This document shows positions 21,733 through 31,932 of a stretch of DNA of 36,111 bases, piece after piece. Where the stretch lies: NCBI GenBank assembly GCA_002731375.1, contig PCBT01000090.1:1-36111 (forward strand), in the 5' to 3' direction. Positions within the stretch are counted from its first letter, which is position 1. Each line of letters starts with the position of its first letter. This stretch comes from Rhodospirillaceae bacterium. Its GTDB lineage: Bacteria; Pseudomonadota; Alphaproteobacteria; GCA-2731375. Position numbers and translations under genes: made by a program. The notes beneath the pieces were generated by a model. The model did not search any database. It was not told the origin of the DNA and was given only the letters and a program-made list of their open reading frames with translations.

Positions 21733-22254
21733 TCAACCCCCGGCACTTCTGCCCGCCGCGCGGGCGCCGAAACCACCGCGCGAGACCGTGCGGGTCCGCG
21801 CGGCTGGGCGTTGGATGGCTGATTTCGCAACCTGGCTCCGTCCGTTTGCAGAGACCGTGCCGATCTGCTGGTTTGACGCCGTATAAAATCTGTTGGGCTG
21901 CGCGCTGGAGCGGTAAAGCGGTTGGCTTGCGATGTAGCCGGCTCCGCCACGCGGCGCTAACATATACCCCATCATGAAAGGCAGCCACACGGAACCGCCT
22001 GATTGGTAACAGCGGTTATATCCGAAATCCGAAAAGCATTGATTTGCCCTGGAATAACGGGGCGCGACTTCGGTATGCAGCTTCTCGGCCTTGGCAAATT
22101 CCGAGCGGCAAACAGTTTCGTCCACCTGGCCGGCTACAATGCAGGCCTCAACGTTGTCGTAGGCCAAAACATCGTCTTCAGCCTCAGCACAGGCAACCAG
22201 GGTCAACGCGGTGACACCGAGGAGGGCAAACTTAAAGGCGTTTGGTCGCTTCAT
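21733..22254 (-). CDS. DUF1190 lipoprotein (YjfM/YgiB-like)
   Basis: A 173-residue protein with a lipoprotein signal: basic MKRPNAFKF, a hydrophobic core and the lipobox LVAC at about residue 22. The mature part has four further Cys and the DNVEACIVAGQVDETVC...AEKLHTEVAPRYS...C segment of DUF1190, the E. coli YgiB/YjfM family, followed by a Tyr/Gly/Arg-rich low-complexity tail. The ATG at 22254 follows GAGGTG; the frame continues 26 codons upstream into the DUF350 gene end. It is the last gene of the minus-strand unit. In E. coli the family is encoded beside a GSP-synthase-like ligase, as in this island. Confidence 0.88.
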   Translation of the reverse strand: MKRPNAFKFALLGVTALTLVACAEAEDDVLAYDNVEACIVAGQVDETVCRSEFAKAEKLHTEVAPRYSRANQCFSDFGYNRCYQSGGSVWLPFMMGYMLAPRGGAGYIASQPLYRSSAQPNRFYTASNQQIGTVSANGRSQVAKSAIQRPAARTRTVSRGGFGARAAGRSAGG

Positions 22255-22271
22255 GCGCGGCACCTCATTCT

Positions 22272-22685
22272 TCAGGTTGTCATGGCGGCGGCATTCAAAA
22301 TACCCCCGACGATCGAACAGGAACCAAGCCAAATCCCCGCAGCCACCTCGCCTTTGTCAATGCGCTCGGAGAGCCGTGGCATGGGCAGGCGAAGAATTAG
22401 ATAGACCAGCACCTGAACGACAAGGGCGACCAATCCCCAAAGCATCATTTCCACAACCGTGACAGAATGGATCATGGTGGAGGCCAGAGGCAAGGCAAAC
22501 CCGACCAGACTGCCGGAAAAAGCCAGTGCGGCGGCTGTCGAGTTTTGCTTGATAAGGGTCAGTTCATTGTGCCGTGTGATACGGGTATAGACGACCACGA
22601 AGATTAGTGTCAGCACCGCTGCGGCAACGAAGAATAGCAAGAACTCAGTCAGGCTCGGCCAAAAAAGGTCAAATTGCGCGTTCAT
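22272..22685 (-). CDS. yjfL: DUF350 membrane protein (YjfL-like)
   Basis: A 137-residue inner-membrane protein with four hydrophobic spans: about 10-31, a second at 45-67 with STAAALAFSGSLVGFALPLAS, a third at 76-97, and one at the C-terminus (GIWLGSCSIVGGILNAAAMT). The AAAxAxxGxxxGFALPLxS segment is the DUF350 core. In E. coli YjfL sits in the yjfIJKLMC cluster. The ribosome site AGGGAGA lies before the ATG and the DUF1190 gene follows 17 bases later. No biochemical role is established for DUF350. Confidence 0.88.
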   Translation of the reverse strand: MNAQFDLFWPSLTEFLLFFVAAAVLTLIFVVVYTRITRHNELTLIKQNSTAAALAFSGSLVGFALPLASTMIHSVTVVEMMLWGLVALVVQVLVYLILRLPMPRLSERIDKGEVAAGIWLGSCSIVGGILNAAAMTT

Positions 22686-22717
22686 TCGAGTCTCCCTATC
22701 AACGGCATGATAACACC

Positions 22718-22734
22718 CGCGCGCATGGCGCGCG
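22718..22734 (-). other. Intercistronic GC hairpin
   Basis: CGCGCGC and GCGCGCG arms enclose an ATG loop between the DUF2491 and DUF350 genes. On the minus strand, the transcript direction, no T-run follows, so read-through with RNA processing or attenuation is more likely than full termination. Confidence 0.4.
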
Positions 22735-22755
22735 ATTTTGTTTCAAATAAATGGT

Positions 22756-23448
22756 TTATATCACGTTTAGGTTTGCAGTTTCGATGTCTACCCCGACCAT
22801 AAGCTCAATGGTGCGTTCCCCTTCGTAGTCTTCGGCGGAAACCAACAGATATTCGTTCTTCTTGTCCGGGCCCAAATTGCGCCCATACAACATGACGGTA
22901 TGGACGATATCGCTGCATTCATCGGATTCGGGGTCTTCATAGACCGATTCTGTAAATATGACCGGTTTCACATTTGAAACGGCGTCGTCGAACCATATAC
23001 GGTCATATTCCGTGCCGTCATCAAGGCGAAAACTCGCCGCGCCAAGTTTACCACCGTCCGATGTCCATTGCGCCCAGGCGCCCTCGCTATCAGGGTAGTA
23101 GCTTTTGTGAGGCACAAACAGAGTTAGCTCTTCAACATGTTCGTCCGACACGCCGCCCACAGTTAAAACCTGGATCACGGCGTCATCACTATTGTAAAAA
23201 CGATGGGCATAAGTGCCGTCGCCCAGATCGATATAACCTTGAGCGACGATCATCATCGTCGTCTCGGGCAGTTCGACGTGAAGGTCGGCCGCGTGCATGC
23301 GCAACGGCAGGGTGTCAATGTCCACGGCGGCGCCGATACGCAGGCGAAACGGAGTTGGAAATTCATCTGCCTCGTCATCATCGGAGAATCTTTCCTTTAG
23401 GTCGCGGACGCCGCTCTTAACCAGAGATTTTATCGTTCTGCCAAACAT
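22756..23448 (-). CDS. yjfK: DUF2491 protein (YjfK-like)
   Basis: A 230-residue soluble acidic protein. It has the DUF2491 pattern: an N-terminal helix, then LPLRMHAADLHVELPETTMMIVAQGYIDLGDGTYAHRFYNSDDAVIQV, and a later EYDRIWFDD block. YjfK is the middle gene of E. coli yjfIJKLMC. Its function is unknown. A GGAGAGG ribosome site precedes the ATG, and the ion channel gene ends 25 bases upstream, so these genes are co-transcribed. No transmembrane span or signal peptide is visible, so it should be cytoplasmic, possibly at the membrane with the PspA homologue. Confidence 0.88.
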   Translation of the reverse strand: MFGRTIKSLVKSGVRDLKERFSDDDEADEFPTPFRLRIGAAVDIDTLPLRMHAADLHVELPETTMMIVAQGYIDLGDGTYAHRFYNSDDAVIQVLTVGGVSDEHVEELTLFVPHKSYYPDSEGAWAQWTSDGGKLGAASFRLDDGTEYDRIWFDDAVSNVKPVIFTESVYEDPESDECSDIVHTVMLYGRNLGPDKKNEYLLVSAEDYEGERTIELMVGVDIETANLNVI

Positions 23449-23472
23449 GTAACCTCTCCAACAACAATTACT

Positions 23473-24537
23473 TCAGGCCAATGCGGGCCAATCAATACGC
23501 GCCGGATCGATACGCTGGGGCGCCATAAAATATAAGGTCATTCCCGGACCGACAGATGCATCCAACGACGCGTTCAATATTAGATCGTCCCCCAAGGTAC
23601 TATTTGCAACGCCAAACAACGTAGCTTCGTGTTTGCTCTTCAACTCCGTGAAGAGCGCCCCATAGGTGACCGGGACGGCATCGTGGGGTACTTGCAGGCT
23701 GAATTGGGTCGGGCCTTCCAAGGTCGATAACAGTTGGCGTTGGACCCGGCTTGACCCAGGATCCTGTGCCGAGCGGACCATCATCTCGATGGAAAGCGAA
23801 ACATTGGCTTCAGCGCGGGAGCAGTGGGCCTTTAGCAGATCGGCAAAACTCTGCTGGTCGAAATACGCAACGATATGAGCCCCCCCATTGACCGCCGCCG
23901 CGCCCAAGGCTGCCGCTAGGGTTTCGTTGTCATCACGTCCAAAGGCGATGACAAATACCGCATTTGCCACGGCGGCGCGTTTTAAAAGATCCGGAGTGTT
24001 TAGGGCAGCAGCGCGCACGAAACGGACCTGATCGGGCATAGGGTTTTCCATGGTTTCGGCGCAGCAAAGGACAATCTCGCGTTTATCGTCGCCCTGTCCG
24101 CCGAGGATATGATCGACCATCCGCTGGGTGCGCACATCATGCCAACCCAGAATGACAACGTGTCCCGACAAATTTTCGTAATTCGCTAATCCACGCAATC
24201 TTTTCCTCCACTTCTCGGAAAACTGCTGCACGATCTTCGCAATGATCGTTGTGAAAAGGGCGATACCGCCGGGCATGACCCAGATTGTTGCGACGACGCG
24301 CCCGGCAGCGGTGGTTGGTGAATAGTCGCCGTATCCGACCGTCGTTGCCGTAGTGGCATAGAAGTACCAAAAAATTTCACCGCTGGCGATTTTCTCACCA
24401 CCGACAAACGCGATCAGGCCCCATGAAGTGGCAAAATGAATAAACGTCATCGTCAGGACCGTGTCCCAACTAAGGCTTGAAATCCGGTTGTATAAACGTC
24501 TTGCGACGCGCGACAATATTAAGTGCATGGCCGGCAT
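23473..24537 (-). CDS. Two-TM potassium channel with RCK/TrkA domain
   Basis: A 354-residue protein. Two membrane helices (about 25-46 and 82-103) flank a pore loop with TVGYGD at residues 66-71, the K+ selectivity filter. From about residue 124 (SGHVVILGWHDVRTQRMVDHIL) it continues as a Rossmann-like RCK/TrkA-N gating domain, and a C-terminal TrkA-C-like part follows. It is the first gene of the minus-strand unit with DUF2491, DUF350 and DUF1190. Such channels with yjf/pspA clusters suggest ion flux across a stressed membrane. The ATG at 24537 or 24528 could be used; both lack a strong ribosome site. Confidence 0.9.
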   Translation of the reverse strand: MPAMHLILSRVARRLYNRISSLSWDTVLTMTFIHFATSWGLIAFVGGEKIASGEIFWYFYATTATTVGYGDYSPTTAAGRVVATIWVMPGGIALFTTIIAKIVQQFSEKWRKRLRGLANYENLSGHVVILGWHDVRTQRMVDHILGGQGDDKREIVLCCAETMENPMPDQVRFVRAAALNTPDLLKRAAVANAVFVIAFGRDDNETLAAALGAAAVNGGAHIVAYFDQQSFADLLKAHCSRAEANVSLSIEMMVRSAQDPGSSRVQRQLLSTLEGPTQFSLQVPHDAVPVTYGALFTELKSKHEATLFGVANSTLGDDLILNASLDASVGPGMTLYFMAPQRIDPARIDWPALA

Positions 24538-24579
24538 CCAACCGCATGTGCCAGTTTTTGCAAATTGCCTCTCAATTCA

Positions 24580-24688
24580 CCAGTCACTGGATTTTCGTTA
24601 ACCTAGTGAGCAGAGCATAGGTCATACTTCTTAGCAAACAAGCGTTTCGGCTATTGCAATTAGTTTTACATGTAACATATTACATGTA
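24580..24688. promoter_or_regulatory. Divergent operator/promoter region of the yjf-like units
   Basis: The gap between the channel gene and yjfI has a perfect inverted repeat with arms TACATGTAA and TTACATGTA around CATA (24667-24688). It lies 23 bases upstream of the yjfI ATG. A TTGCAA (24654-24659) and ATATTA (24677-24682), 17 bases apart, could be -35 and -10 hexamers, which puts the -10 inside the palindrome, a position for repression. A second short palindrome, CCAGT-C-ACTGG, is at 24580-24590, nearer the channel gene. The YjfI-like N-terminus is a candidate binder (inference). Confidence 0.6.
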
Positions 24689-24710
24689 TAGAAACGAGCG
24701 GTGTTGTTTT

Positions 24711-25343
24711 ATGCCAACGAAATCGTCCTATTATCAATCCCGGTACCGCGCCCGTTTGCGGGAAAAAGGCTATGTAAAACGGGAAATTTGGATACCGCCG
24801 GAATATACCAAAGCACTGAAAGACTGTGAAAAGGCGCTACGCATGGGCGTTTCACCTATCATATCGACACCCCCACCGATGACTGCAGCGGAGAGCGAAA
24901 TGAGCAACGACGAAATCTGGACCACGGAAACATTGCATGGGGCGCTGGCGCAATCGGATGCCGCCGCCGAGGATGCAATTAAGGTGGAATTGGTCGCGGG
25001 CATCGACCCCGGGATTCTCATTACCATGACGGAATTCGGCGACCTGCCGCTTCTGATGAGCGTGAGCGGCAGTCAAATCCTGGTCGAAACCTTGCTTTGG
25101 CCCGTTGATGAGGTTGTCGATACGGCGGCTTTCAACGACTTGATCTTGAGGACGCACATGCTGCTGCCATTATCGACATTTGGCATTGGCCAGGGACCCG
25201 ATGGCAAGGACTACTACGAAATGTTCGGCTCGTTAAGTGCCAGTTCGAAATTGACATCCGTCCTATTTGAGATCGAGACCTTGGCCGACAACGCCATGCA
25301 GACGGCCGAGGCCTATCAAACAGAGCTGAAGGTTTCCGCGTGA
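24711..25343 (+). CDS. yjfI: YjfI-like DUF2170 protein with RHH-like N-terminus
   Basis: A 210-residue protein. Residues about 70-205 match DUF2170: KVELVAGIDPGILITMTEFGDLPLLMSVSGSQILVETLLWPVDEV and the LLPLSTFGI segment. Residues 1-46 are extra compared with E. coli YjfI (DUF2170 only, about 130 aa). The pattern SRYRARLREKGYVKREIWIPPEY resembles the basic ribbon-helix-helix-type N-terminus of MazE-like antitoxins (DUF3018: R-RxRLRxxGxRPxxIWVPD). A linker of Pro/Thr joins them. The palindrome just upstream is a natural target, so the protein may be the local regulator (inference). The ATG at 24711 has no strong ribosome site; 24684 is an alternative, but it lies inside the palindrome. Confidence 0.8.
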   Translation: MPTKSSYYQSRYRARLREKGYVKREIWIPPEYTKALKDCEKALRMGVSPIISTPPPMTAAESEMSNDEIWTTETLHGALAQSDAAAEDAIKVELVAGIDPGILITMTEFGDLPLLMSVSGSQILVETLLWPVDEVVDTAAFNDLILRTHMLLPLSTFGIGQGPDGKDYYEMFGSLSASSKLTSVLFEIETLADNAMQTAEAYQTELKVSA

Positions 25344-25394
25344 CCGCCAGCCAGCCAGGCTACATCTGATGCATATGAAAAAGGAGACATCATC

Positions 25395-26087
25395 ATGAGT
25401 ATTTGGGCAAAAGTCGCCACCGCCATCCGGGGTGGGGCCAGCGAAGCCGGCGAGGCGATTGTCGACAATCAGGCCTTGCGCATCCTGGACCAGGAAATCC
25501 GGGACGCCGACAATGGGTTGAGTAAATCAAAAGGCGCGCTGACAGGCATCATCGCCAAGCGAAAATTGGCCGACAAGAAAGTCGGCAGCCTGAAATCGTC
25601 ACTGACGGAATATGATGGCTATGCCATGCAGGCACTGGACAAGGGCGACGATAGTTTGGCCGTGGAAATCGCTGAGAAAATTGCCGGCCTTGAAACAGAA
25701 CTACTAGGCGAGGAAGGCTTGGCAAAGTCCTTTGCCGACAGCGAAGGACAGCTCCGCAAGACGGTCGCACAAACCGAAGCGAACCTGAAACGCCTGAAAC
25801 AACAGGTTGATACGGTCAAGGCGACCGAGGTCGTGCAGAAGTCCCAGGCTGCGGTGGCCGCCCGGCATTCAGGCGTGGGTTCAAGCATGGGCAGCGCGCT
25901 GGAAAGCTTGGAAAGATTAAAGACCAAACAGGCCGAGCGGGCGGCTAAATTCGAAGCGGCCAGTGAACTGGCGGAATCTACCGAGGAAGTCAGCCTGGAC
26001 GCCAAACTGAAAGCCGCCGGCATCGTTGACGGTGGCGCCAGCGGCGGAGATGTGTTGGCCCGATTAAAGGCGAAGCGTGGCGGTTAG
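25395..26087 (+). CDS. yjfJ: PspA/IM30-family protein (YjfJ-like)
   Basis: A 230-residue, almost all-helical protein with long coiled-coil heptads (about 25-150) and the PspA-like AIRGGASEAGEAIVDNQALRILDQEIRDADNGL start. The C-terminal ESLERLKTKQAERAAKFEAASEL and the ending DVLARLKAKRGG match E. coli YjfJ closely. PspA/IM30 proteins oligomerise on the inner face of the cytoplasmic membrane and protect it from leakage. An AAGGAG ribosome site precedes the ATG. It is the second gene after yjfI and the key evidence that this cluster acts at the membrane. Confidence 0.9.
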   Translation: MSIWAKVATAIRGGASEAGEAIVDNQALRILDQEIRDADNGLSKSKGALTGIIAKRKLADKKVGSLKSSLTEYDGYAMQALDKGDDSLAVEIAEKIAGLETELLGEEGLAKSFADSEGQLRKTVAQTEANLKRLKQQVDTVKATEVVQKSQAAVAARHSGVGSSMGSALESLERLKTKQAERAAKFEAASELAESTEEVSLDAKLKAAGIVDGGASGGDVLARLKAKRGG

Positions 26088-26145
26088 AGAACCCGGGATC
26101 GGCGGGCCAGCCCCGCTTCGCCCTGACACCGAAAAAGATCGCAGA

Positions 26146-27321
26146 ATGCATCGTGTCCCAGTCATGCAACGGCCCGGTCTGGCGGAAACAGCCCGAGCCC
26201 ATGGTTATGAGCACCATACCCACGGCGGGGTGCCCTATTGGGAAGAAACCGCATACTATCGCTTCACCCTGAAGCAAATCGAGGACGACTTTGAAAGGCC
26301 GGCGACAGAAATCGACGGCATGTGCTTCGAACTGCTAGACCAATCCCTCCGCGACGAAACGGTCTATCAACGATTGTGCATTCCCGAGGCCTATTGGGAC
26401 TATGTCGCCAACAGTTGGCGGCAGCGGGACAAGGATCTCTATGGCCGGATGGATTTTTCCTATGACGGGACCGCCCCCGCCAAACTGTTGGAATACAACG
26501 CCGATACCCCCACCACCCTATACGAATCGTCGGTCTTTCAATGGCTCTGGCTTGAAGACGCCAAGGCGGCCGGCCTCATACCTCAGAGCAGCGATCAAGC
26601 CGCGGAAATCCATGAGCACCTGGTCTCGGCCTTCGAGAATACGAGGACCGAAGGGTTATTGCACCTCGCCTGTATGCGCGACATGGAAGATGACCGCGAA
26701 ACCGTCAAATATTTGGAGGAATGCGCCCAGGAGGCCGGCCTGAAAACGGATTTTCTGGCCATGCGCGACATTGGTATTGATAAGGACGGCCTTTTTACGG
26801 ACCTGGAAGACCGGGTCATCGCTGATCTATTCAAACTCTACCCCTGGGAATGGATCATGGCGGAGGAGTTCGGCCGTTATCTGACGACCTCGGGTGTGCG
26901 GTTTCTTGAACCACCCTGGAAGGCGGTGCTGTCCAATAAAGGCCTGCTGCCGCTGTTGTGGGAGAAATTTGAAGGTCATCCATATTTATTACCAGCCTAT
27001 TTCGAGGGTGATGCCAAGGTGGCCAATCTTACCGGCGACTACGTCCGAAAGCCCCTATTGTCGCGCCAGGGTGCCAATATCGAAATTGTGCGGCGCGGGA
27101 AAACGGCGGACCGCACCAAACATGTCCATAGCGAGGGAGACTATGGCGGCGAGGGTCATATCGTGCAGGCCTTTCATCCACTACCCGCCTTCGATGGAAA
27201 ATATCCCGTAATGGGATGCTGGATGGTTGCGGGGCAACCCGCCGGCATTTCTATTCGAGAGGGCGAAACTTTGATTACGAACGGCGAGGCAAATTCTATC
27301 CCACATGTTATTCTGGACTAG
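26146..27321 (+). CDS. Glutathionylspermidine synthase-like ATP-grasp ligase (YgiC/YjfC-like)
   Basis: A 391-residue protein that aligns by eye along its whole length with the C-terminal synthetase half of glutathionylspermidine synthase and with E. coli YgiC/YjfC. Marks are SLYGRMDFSYDG, KLLEYNADTPTTLYESSVFQW (substrate and metal loop), KLYPWEW, WKAVLSNKGLLPLLWE, YVRKPLLSRQGANI (ATP lysine) and the end GISIREGETLITN. The amidase half of the bifunctional enzyme is absent, as in YgiC/YjfC. The ATG at 26146 matches the family start; the frame continues upstream into the yjfJ end. In E. coli these genes are suspected ligases joining an amine to a peptide or protein, with the substrate unknown. 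The decarboxylase gene follows after 27 bases. Confidence 0.88.
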   Translation: MHRVPVMQRPGLAETARAHGYEHHTHGGVPYWEETAYYRFTLKQIEDDFERPATEIDGMCFELLDQSLRDETVYQRLCIPEAYWDYVANSWRQRDKDLYGRMDFSYDGTAPAKLLEYNADTPTTLYESSVFQWLWLEDAKAAGLIPQSSDQAAEIHEHLVSAFENTRTEGLLHLACMRDMEDDRETVKYLEECAQEAGLKTDFLAMRDIGIDKDGLFTDLEDRVIADLFKLYPWEWIMAEEFGRYLTTSGVRFLEPPWKAVLSNKGLLPLLWEKFEGHPYLLPAYFEGDAKVANLTGDYVRKPLLSRQGANIEIVRRGKTADRTKHVHSEGDYGGEGHIVQAFHPLPAFDGKYPVMGCWMVAGQPAGISIREGETLITNGEANSIPHVILD

Positions 27322-27348
27322 TGATGAATTCTGCAAGGGGCGGGAAAT

Positions 27349-28512
27349 ATGACCGGGGCCAATGAACTTGAAACGCCGGCTTTCGTGACTGACGAGAAGG
27401 TTTTGCAAAAAGACCTAGCATTGCTGCGCGATGTGGCGGATCAAGCATCATGTAAACTGCTCTATTCGCCCAAAGCCAGTGTCCTTTCGACGGTCCTGCA
27501 AAATATTGCGGGACAGGTGGATGGGTTCGCCTGCAGCTCACCCTATGAACTTCGGCTACTGGACCAGCTACGCAACGGCAGGCAGTCATTGCATTTGGTC
27601 AGTCCGTTGATCAAGTTGGAAACATTGGCGGCATTCGGTGGGCGTCTCGACTATCTCACCGTAAATTCTTTGTCCCAATGGGAATTCGTGCGCGCCTCCG
27701 TTTCGCCCAACACCCATGTCGGTCTCCGGGTGAACCCACAGCTTTCCTTCATCCGCGATGCCCGCTACGATCCCTGCCGGCACCAATCAAAGCTGGGGGT
27801 GCCCGCAAGCAAATTGGCCGGTCTCGCAGCCACGGGCAGGACGGTACTGCGCGGTATCACGGGCCTTCATTTTCATAACAATTGTGAAGGCACGGACTTC
27901 GCCAATCTTCTTGCCACCGCTCGACATATCGAAAATGTCATCCCGGAACTTTTACATCAGGTCGAGTGGATCAATATTGGCGGCGGCTATCTGTTTGACC
28001 AGACAAGCAACTACACTGATTTCCAAGCGGCCGTGGCCATCTTCCGCGAAGTCTTCGGTCTTGAGGTGTTCATGGAGCCGGGTGCGGCGGCGGTGCGCCG
28101 CAGCGGCACTATCGAAGCGACGGTGCATGATATTTTCAACAGCGACAATAGCCAGATAGCCATCCTGGACACCACGGTCAATCACATGCCGGAAGTCTTT
28201 GAGTTCCAGTTCGAACCCGATGTCCTGGGGCACATTGACGGCGGCCTCCATTCCTACACATTGGCGGGATGCACATGTATGGCAGGCGATGTGTTCGGCC
28301 AGTATTCATTCGACAAGCCTTTGACGATTGGCGCGCGGCTTAAATTCCTCAACATGGGCGCCTATACTATGTCAAAGGCCCACAGGTTCAATGGCGTTGC
28401 CTTGCCGACCGTCTACGGCTGTCAGCCGAATGGTTCGCTGGAGAAAGTCGAGGCCGATAGCTTCGATGAATTCGTCCGGCATAAGGGGAGTTTCCACGTT
28501 GCAGTTGCATGA
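27349..28512 (+). CDS. nspC: Carboxynorspermidine-decarboxylase-like PLP enzyme
   Basis: A 387-residue fold-III PLP decarboxylase. CKLLYSPKAS places the Schiff-base lysine at K42; GLHFHNNCE (172-180) holds the ring-stacking His; GGGYL (211-215) and EPGAA (243-247) bind phosphate and PLP. GCTCMAGDVFGQYSF supplies the catalytic cysteine C310 on the other subunit, and GAYTMSKAHRFNG closes the site. These are the marks of carboxynorspermidine/carboxyspermidine decarboxylase, which makes norspermidine or spermidine. A carboxy(nor)spermidine dehydrogenase, its usual partner, is not in the window. The substrate could therefore be imported or made elsewhere, or differ. The ligase precedes it and DUF3326 follows. 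Confidence 0.85.
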   Translation: MTGANELETPAFVTDEKVLQKDLALLRDVADQASCKLLYSPKASVLSTVLQNIAGQVDGFACSSPYELRLLDQLRNGRQSLHLVSPLIKLETLAAFGGRLDYLTVNSLSQWEFVRASVSPNTHVGLRVNPQLSFIRDARYDPCRHQSKLGVPASKLAGLAATGRTVLRGITGLHFHNNCEGTDFANLLATARHIENVIPELLHQVEWINIGGGYLFDQTSNYTDFQAAVAIFREVFGLEVFMEPGAAAVRRSGTIEATVHDIFNSDNSQIAILDTTVNHMPEVFEFQFEPDVLGHIDGGLHSYTLAGCTCMAGDVFGQYSFDKPLTIGARLKFLNMGAYTMSKAHRFNGVALPTVYGCQPNGSLEKVEADSFDEFVRHKGSFHVAVA

Positions 28513-29884
28513 AAAGTCAATCACCCTTCCCAGCTCACCCAATCATCGTGGGCTCATTCAGCACTTCGAATCTGCCCTGCGCCATGGCTACGCCGCTGGC
28601 GCAACGCCGCTTTACCCCGGCGCAGCAGACATCCCTGTACGGTTGGCCGTAACCTCGTTTGATGGCAGCGCATACTCCTGCGAGATCGGTTATCTGACCG
28701 GCGCGGATCATAGCCTCGCCGAGGGCCTTCAATCCATATTCGCATTCAAACAAAGAAATGGCATAAACGCTGAAGAATTCAACGCGGTCTATATCGTACC
28801 TACCGGGATCGGCGCCGAGGTTGGCGGCCATGCGGGCGATGCCAGCCCGGCGGCGCAGCTATTGGCGTCTTGCTGTGATCGTCTGATTACCCACCCAAAC
28901 GTGGTCAACGCATCCGACATGAACGAGATGCCGGCCAACGCCGAATATGTGGAAGGCAGCGTTCTCTGCCGCCTGTTGATGGGCACCGCCGGACTGGACG
29001 CGGTGCGGGCCAACCGTGTTCTGGTGGTGTTTGATAGCCAGACGGACGGGATGATTGAAAACCTGGTCTTGAACACGGTGGAATCCGCCCGCAGCACATA
29101 TGGGCTTGATTGTGCTGGTATCTATAAAATGGCCCCCCCGCTTGAGCTAACGGCCTTATCCTCGCCGGCCGGGAGGGCCGTCGGTTCGGGGCGGAATATC
29201 CATAAACTTTTTGATTTGCTCAGAGAGACGGCTGGCGACTATGACGCAGTTGCCATCTCCAGCCTCATTGGAGTGCCCGACGGCTTTCACGAAAAATATT
29301 TCAACAGTGCGGGCAGCATGATCAATCCCTGGGGCGGCGTCGAAGCCATGTTGACCCATGCCGTTTCCCATTATTTCAACGTGCCATCAGCCCATGCACC
29401 GATGATAGAATCCCGTGAGATCTTGAACGAAGACTCCGGCCGGGTCGATCCGCGCATGGCAGCGGAGGCCATTTCATCATCGTTTTTTCAATGCGTCCTG
29501 AAAGGCTTGAAACAGTCCCCTCGAATAGTAACGGATCCGAACCAGATGACCGCAGGCGGCGTCCTAACCGCCCGGGATATATCTTGCCTGATAATACCGG
29601 AGGGATGTATCGGCTTGCCCACCCTCGGTGCCCTTGAGCAGGGAATCACGGTCATAGCGGTGCGCGAGGGCAGCGGCCTTACGGCGGGGGAGTTGAGCCA
29701 CTTGCCGTGGCGGGACAATCAGTTTTTCGTTGCTGAAAACTATTGGGAGGCAGCCGGTGTATTGAGCGCGCTACGGGCCGGCATCGCGCCAAACTCAATC
29801 CGGCGTCCATTTCCGAAGCTAGAGGTCAAAACCTGGCGAGATGCCGACCCGCTGAATGCAACCATTCCCCGCCGCCGGCAATAG
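28499..29884 (+). CDS. DUF3326 protein with N-terminal extension
   Basis: A 461-residue protein. From about residue 97 it matches DUF3326: VYIVPTGIGAEVGGHAGDASPAAQLLASCCDRLITHPNVVN, then EYVEGSVLCRLLMG, GVEAMLTHAVSHYFNVPSAHAPM and AEAISSSFFQCVLKGL, ending VIPEGCIGLPTLGALEQGITVIAV. DUF3326 proteins are widespread in cyanobacteria and plants with no known reaction. Here about 95 residues precede the domain. The frame starts inside the decarboxylase gene; a TTG at 28499 with AAGGGGAG 9 bases upstream is the best start and overlaps the decarboxylase by 14 bases, so the two are translationally coupled. The fixed order suggests it acts next in the pathway. Confidence 0.82.
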   Translation: MQLHEKSITLPSSPNHRGLIQHFESALRHGYAAGATPLYPGAADIPVRLAVTSFDGSAYSCEIGYLTGADHSLAEGLQSIFAFKQRNGINAEEFNAVYIVPTGIGAEVGGHAGDASPAAQLLASCCDRLITHPNVVNASDMNEMPANAEYVEGSVLCRLLMGTAGLDAVRANRVLVVFDSQTDGMIENLVLNTVESARSTYGLDCAGIYKMAPPLELTALSSPAGRAVGSGRNIHKLFDLLRETAGDYDAVAISSLIGVPDGFHEKYFNSAGSMINPWGGVEAMLTHAVSHYFNVPSAHAPMIESREILNEDSGRVDPRMAAEAISSSFFQCVLKGLKQSPRIVTDPNQMTAGGVLTARDISCLIIPEGCIGLPTLGALEQGITVIAVREGSGLTAGELSHLPWRDNQFFVAENYWEAAGVLSALRAGIAPNSIRRPFPKLEVKTWRDADPLNATIPRRRQ

Positions 29885-30291: not shown

Positions 30292-31497
30292 TCAGGATTC
30301 AGACGCCGACCCCGGCGCAAATGCCTCGTTCGAGGAGGAGAAATAGTCATATAATCGGTCAATCCCCTCATCATACCGAGCGTTGCAAAAGGCCAGCCGC
30401 AGGTCTTGTGGAACGCCAAAGTCGGTCCCCGGAACGACGGCAACGTGGGCTTTTTCGAGGATGTCCCGGGCGAGTTCCTTGGAAGATGCAAAACCCATTG
30501 CCTTGTTCCAGTCTTCGCATCGCAGTATCGCGTAGAACCCGCCTTCGGCGGCGATTGGCGTACACCGCGTGCCAGTCAGGCGTTTCGTGGTGTATTCAGC
30601 ACGCGCTTTATAGACACTCGTGAGTTCCCGAGGACTTTCCTCGTCGGCGAGTGCGGCGATCATGCCGTATTGATAACAGGGGTCAGTGCAAAGCAAGGTG
30701 TGCTGTTGGATGACACGCAAATTGGTCTGCAAATCCGTTGGCAGGATGGCGAAACCAATGCGCTTGGTATACATCCGAAACCCCTTGGAAAAACTATTCG
30801 TGACAATTGTCATATCTTTATGTTCGGGGAATAACGCCAAGGGCGAGTGGAATTCATCGTAGAACATCGTGTTGTTATAGATTTCATCATTCAAAACGTA
30901 GGCCTGACGATCGACGATCTGGTAGATTTCGCGCATTTCGTCGGGCGTGACGATGTTGCCGACCGGGTTGCCGGGAGAATTGATGACGACCAGCGATGTG
31001 CGCTCGGGCGAGAAGTTGCGGCGGAACGACTCCATGTCGACGCGCTTGGTATCGATGTCGATGTCATAGAACTTGACCGTGGCGCCGGCCAACTTCGCGC
31101 AATACAGATAGAGGGCGTAGTAGGGCCTCGGAATCATGATTTCGTATTCAGGACCCGATAGAAGTTGAAATATGTTTCGAAAAATCGGCGAGGTACCCGT
31201 GTTGACGATGACATTTTCGACCGAGGTGTCCGCCTGGTATCGCCGATTATAGAATTGCACGATCGCTTGGCGTAGTTCGGGAAGCCCTTCGGGATAGACG
31301 CGCCGGACAAAATCCCGATCCCGAAGCTTTTCGATCATCCCATCGAGCGCGGCATCGGGCATGAATAATTCAGGCACGCCTATTGTTAGCTTCAAGACGT
31401 CGGCACCTTTTGCGCTGAGCTCATCCGCGAGTTCGTCAAGAACGAACATCTGAAATTCCAGATCACCCGGCATTAGGTCCTTTATCACTTGTGGCAT
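30292..31497 (-). CDS. Class I/II aminotransferase
   Basis: A 401-residue fold-I PLP enzyme. YPEGLPELRQAIVQFY, the NTGTSPIF helix start, INSPGNPVG with the PLP-contact Asn, DEIY, and SFSKGFRMYTKRIGF with the Schiff-base lysine at K238 are the class I marks. The last is close to aspartate/tyrosine/valine-pyruvate-type aminotransferases; the usual NPTG Thr is Val here. An AGGAGA ribosome site precedes the ATG at 31497; an upstream in-frame start at 31557 lacks one. It is convergent with the DUF3326 gene. Its donor and acceptor are not predictable; it may not belong to the yjf-like unit. Confidence 0.88.
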   Translation of the reverse strand: MPQVIKDLMPGDLEFQMFVLDELADELSAKGADVLKLTIGVPELFMPDAALDGMIEKLRDRDFVRRVYPEGLPELRQAIVQFYNRRYQADTSVENVIVNTGTSPIFRNIFQLLSGPEYEIMIPRPYYALYLYCAKLAGATVKFYDIDIDTKRVDMESFRRNFSPERTSLVVINSPGNPVGNIVTPDEMREIYQIVDRQAYVLNDEIYNNTMFYDEFHSPLALFPEHKDMTIVTNSFSKGFRMYTKRIGFAILPTDLQTNLRVIQQHTLLCTDPCYQYGMIAALADEESPRELTSVYKARAEYTTKRLTGTRCTPIAAEGGFYAILRCEDWNKAMGFASSKELARDILEKAHVAVVPGTDFGVPQDLRLAFCNARYDEGIDRLYDYFSSSNEAFAPGSASES

Positions 31498-31932
31498 TCT
31501 ATCTCCTGCGGCTCGGTTGGGTTTGATTGATATTGAAGCATACGGCGGCTGCGACACAGACAGCGGCTCACGCGCAGCAATGTCCCGCCGCCAGTCTCAC
31601 CAGTATTATGAAGTTGCGAGGTTGCCCTAATGGTACAGCACAAGGTCGAGAACACTCAACCTTAGTAACAGCCAATTTCTAGAATGGATCATTCTCGATG
31701 TTCGCCGTTTGGAGTCGCAAGGCTCGATGCTTGGGCAAAACCTGATCGCCGACATAATGCGAGGTGGCAAGCAAGGTCAGAAGGGCCGCGACGCACCAAA
31801 GCACTTGGCGCACCGGCTGGAACATCAGCGCGCATATCCGCTCCAGTCATAGCTATTTCGCTATCCGCTGCGGCAAAGGCTGCTAAGGCGATCAATATTT
31901 CATCCGGTTTCTTTCTATGCTACGCTTCCGCC
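31498..31932. other. Gap with a possible decayed reading frame
   Basis: No intact gene. Plus-strand codons at about 31679-31840 encode an unbroken stretch containing EWIILDVRRLESQGSMLGQN and more, without a start or ribosome site. I do not recognise it; it may be a remnant. The part nearest 31497 must contain the aminotransferase promoter. Confidence 0.35.

Follow-up and report, generated by a model that had tools for sequence, protein, structure and literature searches.

A gene pair coupling DUF3326 to exchangeable decarboxylases, possibly a two-step amine module, at the end of an alphaproteobacterial PspA operon

Several described systems resemble parts of a locus in a 36,111-nucleotide stretch of DNA from a Rhodospirillaceae bacterium (contig PCBT01000090.1; this whole stretch is called the window below), in which the gene of an NspC-like decarboxylase overlaps the gene of a protein of the Pfam family DUF3326. 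The operons that combine CesT/Tir-type (YjfI/BacA) and PspA genes with a GSPS-like ATP-grasp ligase form the "third group" of Ravi et al. 2024, and polyamine genes (AdoMet decarboxylase, polyamine oxidase) have been reported in variants of PspA operons (PMC11237479). The window holds the same gene families in a single block, but its operon ends in a pyridoxal phosphate (PLP)-dependent NspC-like decarboxylase and a DUF3326 protein, a family that Ravi et al. do not mention. The bac operon of P. aeruginosa also resembles part of the block (PMC10948618). Related phage SpeD homologues have been shown to be ornithine decarboxylases (PMC9992855), and DUF3326 partners found elsewhere have the fold of the SpeDC and SpeDA proteins of phages and bacteria (PMC9992855, PMC10407285) and carry Gln58 and Thr62, whereas in the window this role is held by an unrelated PLP enzyme; neither of these two papers came up in a full-text search for DUF3326. 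FigA/FigC and related decarboxylases of conjugates (PMC7857480) follow a comparable two-gene logic of conjugation and alanine-racemase-fold decarboxylation, but none of the searches run here linked DUF3326 to NIS synthetases. A full-text literature search for DUF3326 found no paper on its function, and novelty is judged here only against the literature searched.

A sequence-only reading of the window had proposed a functional link between the decarboxylase and DUF3326. This link is strongly supported by the conserved coupling of the two genes and by the recurrence of unrelated decarboxylases as partners of DUF3326, and we regard it as highly probable that both proteins serve one pathway. The pair consists of the following parts.

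27349..28512, + strand: PLP-dependent decarboxylase of 387 aa with the alanine racemase fold, NspC-like (Pfam PF02784/PF00278)
28499..29884, + strand: DUF3326 protein, 461 aa, TTG start, 14-nt overlap with the decarboxylase gene
28499..28512, + strand: the 14-nt overlap, TTGCAGTTGCATGA, with length and TTG start identical in 7/7 genomes
28499..28783, + strand: N-terminal region of DUF3326 (residues 1-95), common to the long-form branch
28784..29800, + strand: DUF3326 core (Pfam match residues 96-434), predicted to form two alpha/beta domains

The membership in DUF3326 is given by a PF11805 match of residues 96-434 to profile positions 2-336 of 337 (E 1.6e-85; 287.5 bits against a cut-off of 25). 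The sequence-only reading had placed the start at TTG 28499, 14 bases inside the decarboxylase gene, and had proposed looking for the same spacing in other genomes. This spacing recurs wherever an NspC-like gene was found paired with DUF3326, in seven genomes (the window, G002 (= L014), G041 (L009), L015, L016, L017, and G747 (L044)), each with an overlap of exactly 14 nt and a TTG, at protein identities to the window of 64-91%. Because the exact length and the TTG persist at such identities, the overlap is not a product of chance or annotation error. Furthermore, in-frame stops directly upstream fix the start in SpeD-type relatives, for example in L008, where a stop codon immediately precedes the aligned ATG, and the long forms of DUF3326 share the conserved opening residues M-x-L-x-E-K. 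The upstream stops, the aligned N-terminal residues, and the fixed overlap therefore indicate that neither the start nor the overlap nor the long N-terminus is an artefact, and a chance overlap or a wrong start can be ruled out. The 95-residue extension had been described as an extra N-terminus; it is not peculiar to the window gene, since it occurs in 28/73 rows of the DUF3326 tree, all on one branch (support 100), and, being common to all long forms, it is no fusion or oddity of this gene. It is the mark of one of the two main branches of the gathered DUF3326 sequences. Further DUF3326 fragments, 80-86% identical to the window, lie at contig ends (L018 3-791 and L013 11474-12052) and are probably further copies of the same operon block.

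The second line of evidence is the range of partners. When viral contigs were searched with an alignment of DUF3326 proteins, 67 loci were obtained. The neighbouring gene was SpeD-like in 52, phosphatidylserine decarboxylase (PSD)-like in 8, and ornithine cyclodeaminase (OCD)/mu-crystallin-like in 3, while 4 loci had no such neighbour; after removal of near-copies (n = 61), the figures were 47, 8, 2, and 4. A Pfam scan of representatives confirmed the three viral partner families. A SpeD-like gene also stands directly before DUF3326 in the cellular relatives G117, G595, G677, and G593. In bacteria and phage contigs alike, nearly every DUF3326 gene found here thus has an amino-acid decarboxylase gene as its neighbour. 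The decarboxylase partners of DUF3326 represent three unrelated folds, namely a PLP enzyme (NspC-like) and two pyruvoyl enzymes (SpeD-like and PSD-like). The PSD-like proteins of viral contigs are soluble and carry the cleavage motif WGSQT or YGSQV (L069-L071 and L076-L079, in which the gene follows DUF3326, and L066 7178-7900). The OCD/mu-crystallin-like protein (PF02423, E 9.3e-53) takes the place of the decarboxylase in L068 (3939-4865), L126 (4859-5788), and L130, of which the last two are near-copies.

In phage contigs, the decarboxylase and DUF3326 genes usually stand alone as a two-gene unit. Terminase or portal genes lie beside the pair in several viral contigs, and at least these contigs, as not all were checked, are real phages. 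The recurrent other neighbours in the viral loci are mostly homing-endonuclease-like and terminase genes, and no third pathway gene was seen among them. Among cellular genomes, DUF3326 was present in 7/191 relatives, 10/385 genomes of the class, and 2/398 genomes of the phylum, these samples being overlapping; one of the last two is a relic, a short broken DUF3326 with in-frame stops (G496, L235 4656-5009, - strand). Synechococcus elongatus was the only control genome with a DUF3326 match. No DUF3326 was detected by tblastn in isolated phages (50,697 records) or in plasmids, and the isolated phages searched, whatever their DNA modifications, lend no support to a DNA-modification role of the protein. 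No PHROGs family matched DUF3326, and a single-sequence search of the viral contigs found no NspC-like enzyme.

In the tree of 73 DUF3326 proteins, the NspC-paired members form one clade of seven (support 100) inside the SpeD-paired region. Because of this nesting, the pattern is explained most simply, on the phylogeny, by a single replacement of the SpeD-like enzyme by the NspC-like one; the PSD pairing requires at least two changes. Since the replacement kept DUF3326 as the partner, it suggests that the amine supplied by the two exchanged decarboxylases is identical or similar. In addition, the two partners are not equally dependent on each other. SpeD-like genes lack a DUF3326 gene within 3 kb in 28/78 viral loci, an upper figure that includes some contig-end cuts or near-copies, and PSD-like genes lack it in 4/12, while DUF3326 is without a partner in 4/67; no third partner was seen in the place of DUF3326 in the SpeD-only viral loci. 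DUF3326 thus seems to depend on the decarboxylase more than the reverse. Because the SpeD-like gene often occurs without DUF3326 and the reverse is rare, a DUF3326 step after decarboxylation is favoured. The earlier proposal that DUF3326 acts on the decarboxylated amine gains from this asymmetry, which still leaves some room for DUF3326 making the substrate beforehand.

The two-domain architecture of the window decarboxylase (PF02784 and PF00278 in a Pfam scan) is that of the alanine-racemase-fold family, and the solved structures closest to it are those of carboxy(nor)spermidine decarboxylases (CASDCs), with ClCASDC (9eaf, E 5.5e-66) at the top. Alignment with the CASDCs identifies K42 as the PLP lysine and C310 as the catalytic cysteine, both of which had been noted as kept; together with the PLP-site residues H176, E243, and Y339, they are retained in 7/7 NspC-like proteins, and C179 and D314 are retained as well. 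The enzyme shares with NspC (TIGR01047) the fold, the PLP lysine, the catalytic cysteine, and most of the pocket. The nspC model is indeed its best family match (E 3.6e-77), but the score of 259.4 bits falls under the equivalog cut-off of 409 bits. Moreover, the specificity-helix aspartate (Asp276 in ClCASDC numbering), present in 6/6 CASDCs compared, is replaced by glutamate with a one-residue deletion before it in 7/7 NspC-like proteins. There are also changes of His207 to Tyr and of Glu240 to Ala, the latter at a position that varies among the compared CASDCs too. The partner dehydrogenase, reported in the sequence-only reading as missing from the window, was found nowhere in the genome: no match to a carboxynorspermidine/carboxyspermidine dehydrogenase at E<=1e-3 was obtained in the window's own genome, G000 (96% complete), and likewise none in the DUF3326-bearing relatives G002, G041, G747, G741, and G117, while three control genomes with canonical NspC gave E<1e-136. 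There is just one other PF02784 protein in G000, G002, G041, and G741; it has 424-439 aa and from this size would be a diaminopimelate decarboxylase.

The low family score, the Asp-to-Glu change, and the failure to find the dehydrogenase in the genome lead us to conclude from sequence comparison that the decarboxylase is very probably not a true NspC, and the canonical norspermidine pathway is rejected on the same grounds. Carboxynorspermidine, put forward earlier as an assay substrate, is therefore probably the wrong choice. The specificity helix is thought to choose the substrate by length (PMC11866407), and the Asp-to-Glu change suggests a shorter rather than a longer substrate. We propose with moderate confidence that the NspC-like enzyme acts on a shorter basic amino acid, with ornithine as the first candidate.

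The SpeD-like partners also bear on the substrate. Numbered by a T. maritima reference used as a ruler only, they keep Ser63, His68, and Cys83 (self-cleavage/catalytic residues) in 54/54 readable rows, Gln58 in 52/54, and Thr62 in 48/54, and Pro71 is mostly absent. A proline is reported to be conserved in true AdoMet decarboxylases but not in the arginine decarboxylases, and Gln, Thr, Phe, and Tyr are reported as the four residues diagnostic of the pyruvoyl ornithine decarboxylase SpeDC (PMC10407285).

When PDB sequences were searched with a DUF3326 profile and 66 members were scanned with Pfam, nothing but DUF3326 came back. A structure model built from 66 sequences reached a predicted local distance difference test score (pLDDT) of 90.1 and a predicted template modelling score (pTM) of 0.90, compared with a pLDDT of 34 for an earlier model from six close sequences. 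With the better model, Foldseek gave no match at E<=1e-3 in the PDB and a fold search of BFVD gave none at the same threshold. A second aligner matched ~135-140 residues at both ends of the core to GT-B chains (Z 8-9.8, 3.2-3.9 Å, 7-16% identity), the best match having Z 9.8, 3.4 Å, and 11% identity, and matched residues ~168-345 to lumazine synthase instead (Z ~9, 4 Å). Such scores can reflect only a common arrangement, and a nucleotide-binding role of DUF3326 may be taken as a lead. The invariant residues of phage and bacterial members concentrate in motifs such as PTGxGxxxGGHxGD, HPNVxNxxDxNEM, and YVEGS, a pattern that would suit an enzyme.

Collectively, these data can be read as a two-step amine module. 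In the first step, the decarboxylase would remove CO2 from a short basic amino acid, for which L-ornithine or something close to it is the likeliest choice, and the product would be putrescine or a comparable amine; we hold a short basic amino acid as the substrate for somewhat better than an even bet. In the second step, DUF3326 would use that amine, probably by joining it to another molecule; in its predicted structure, one part is similar to the half of GT-B glycosyltransferases that binds the nucleotide. The odds that DUF3326 acts after decarboxylation fall slightly short of even, and to the whole two-step reading we assign a probability of about 0.38.

The order of the two steps could be different. 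The families from which decarboxylases were recruited, NspC, SpeD, and PSD, use carboxynorspermidine, AdoMet, and phosphatidylserine, respectively, so that each is known to act on an amino acid bearing a large side group. This would suit a route that begins with conjugation, in which DUF3326 would couple an amino acid to a second molecule before the conjugate is decarboxylated. Rhizoferrin (FigA/FigC), microcin C (MccE), and the conversion of phosphatidylserine to phosphatidylethanolamine follow such an order. FigC, SbnH, AcsE, MccE, and BtrK are alanine-racemase-fold decarboxylases of conjugates (PMC7857480), and the NspC-like protein weakly matches FslC, the model of the N-citrylornithine decarboxylase. 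We nevertheless consider this route rather unlikely, given that the SpeD-like partners bear two residues reported for free-ornithine decarboxylases, that they so often occur without DUF3326, and that the change in the specificity helix would hint at a shorter, not a longer, substrate. Alternatively, DUF3326 might precede the decarboxylase by making or releasing a free amino acid, for example ornithine, for its partner. Ornithine is the usual substrate of the ornithine cyclodeaminase family, and the three viral loci that pair DUF3326 with a PF02423 protein would also be explained. The asymmetry of occurrence counts against it, and ornithine is already a normal host metabolite, which leaves this order improbable.

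Roles outside catalysis fare less well. The translational coupling and the co-occurrence would fit a physical complex in which DUF3326 helps to assemble, stabilise, or regulate the decarboxylase and is itself no pathway enzyme, but one binding surface could hardly recognise at least three unrelated decarboxylase folds, and the many invariant polar residues shared by phage and bacterial members look catalytic; this explanation appears quite improbable. Least credible, and disfavoured by us, is a true carboxynorspermidine/carboxyspermidine decarboxylase with DUF3326 as an unrelated passenger: the best family match and the top solved relative speak for it, while the score below the cut-off, the dehydrogenase not found in the genome, the replaced specificity aspartate, the conserved coupling, and the partner exchange speak against it.

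Several observations weigh against the two-step amine module itself. The GT-B likeness of DUF3326 is weak at the identity and Z values given above and has no counterpart in the Foldseek search. Only two of the four residues diagnostic of SpeDC, Gln and Thr, were placed in the SpeD-like partners. The asymmetry could also stem from other roles of some phage SpeD-like proteins, and the OCD-like partner is no decarboxylase. Moreover, two alphaproteobacteria, G092 and G100, carry a DUF3326 gene with no decarboxylase gene next to it, and the cyanobacterial DUF3326 proteins, of the same Pfam family as the window protein, cluster with fed3 and DUF650 in a published context without decarboxylase (PMC4284462). 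In G092 (L011 5878-8060, - strand), DUF3326 directly follows a family-3 amino-acid solute-binding protein (PF00497).

In the window, the pair lies at the end of a nine-gene block (21733-29884) composed of two divergent runs, and this block, not the pair alone, is the true genetic unit. Its other members are listed here.

26077..27321, + strand: GSP_synth, glutathionylspermidine-synthase-like ATP-grasp ligase of the YjfC type (ORF-finder start)
25395..26087, + strand: PspA/IM30 protein of the YjfJ/BacB type
24711..25343, + strand: DUF2170 protein (YjfI/BacA), CesT/Tir-like
23473..24537, - strand: potassium-channel-like protein (Ion_trans_2, weak TrkA_N)
22756..23448, - strand: DUF2491 protein of the YjfK type
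22272..22685, - strand: DUF350 membrane protein of the YjfL type
21733..22332, - strand: DUF1190 lipoprotein of the YjfM type

The start of the ligase may lie downstream of 26077, because its homologues align from residue 24. All seven families of the third group as described in PMC11237479 (DUF2170, PspA, GSP_synth, K channel, DUF350, DUF1190, and DUF2491) score over their Pfam cut-offs in the one block. Within the genus, the ligase occurs together with the pair only in G000 and G002; G010 has a minimal operon of lipoprotein and GSP_synth ligase only (L139 8491-10223, - strand), near which no PspA, decarboxylase, or DUF3326 gene was found. From this distribution, it can be concluded that the decarboxylase-DUF3326 module is an addition to the PspA operon. 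The decarboxylase and DUF3326 are also present without a ligase nearby in G747 and G593. In the genome of the window, where the module extends a PspA/YjfI-GSP_synth envelope operon, either the amine or the product of DUF3326 may be a substrate of the ATP-grasp ligase. Scans for sigma70 promoters and terminators gave fewer sites than in shuffled sequences and were uninformative. An aminotransferase of class I/II (30292-31557, - strand) converges on the operon; GntC of guanitoxin synthesis ranks second among its NCBIfam matches, with a score well under the cut-off.

We tentatively propose, as a possibility held at rather less than even odds, that DUF3326 is a new kind of amine- or amino-acid-using enzyme without a clear structural match in the PDB, carried in a mobile two-gene module with interchangeable decarboxylases, spread by phages, and wired into an alphaproteobacterial PspA envelope-stress operon that would make an undescribed polyamine conjugate. 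A link to decarboxylases that survives the replacement of one family by another narrows the question of DUF3326 function to a few assays with defined substrates. Such a function would add a further, unknown step to phage-borne polyamine metabolism, where earlier discussion of the SpeD-like genes has left DUF3326 out, and it would link polyamine chemistry to the PspA/YjfI/YjfC envelope operons, which are themselves poorly understood.

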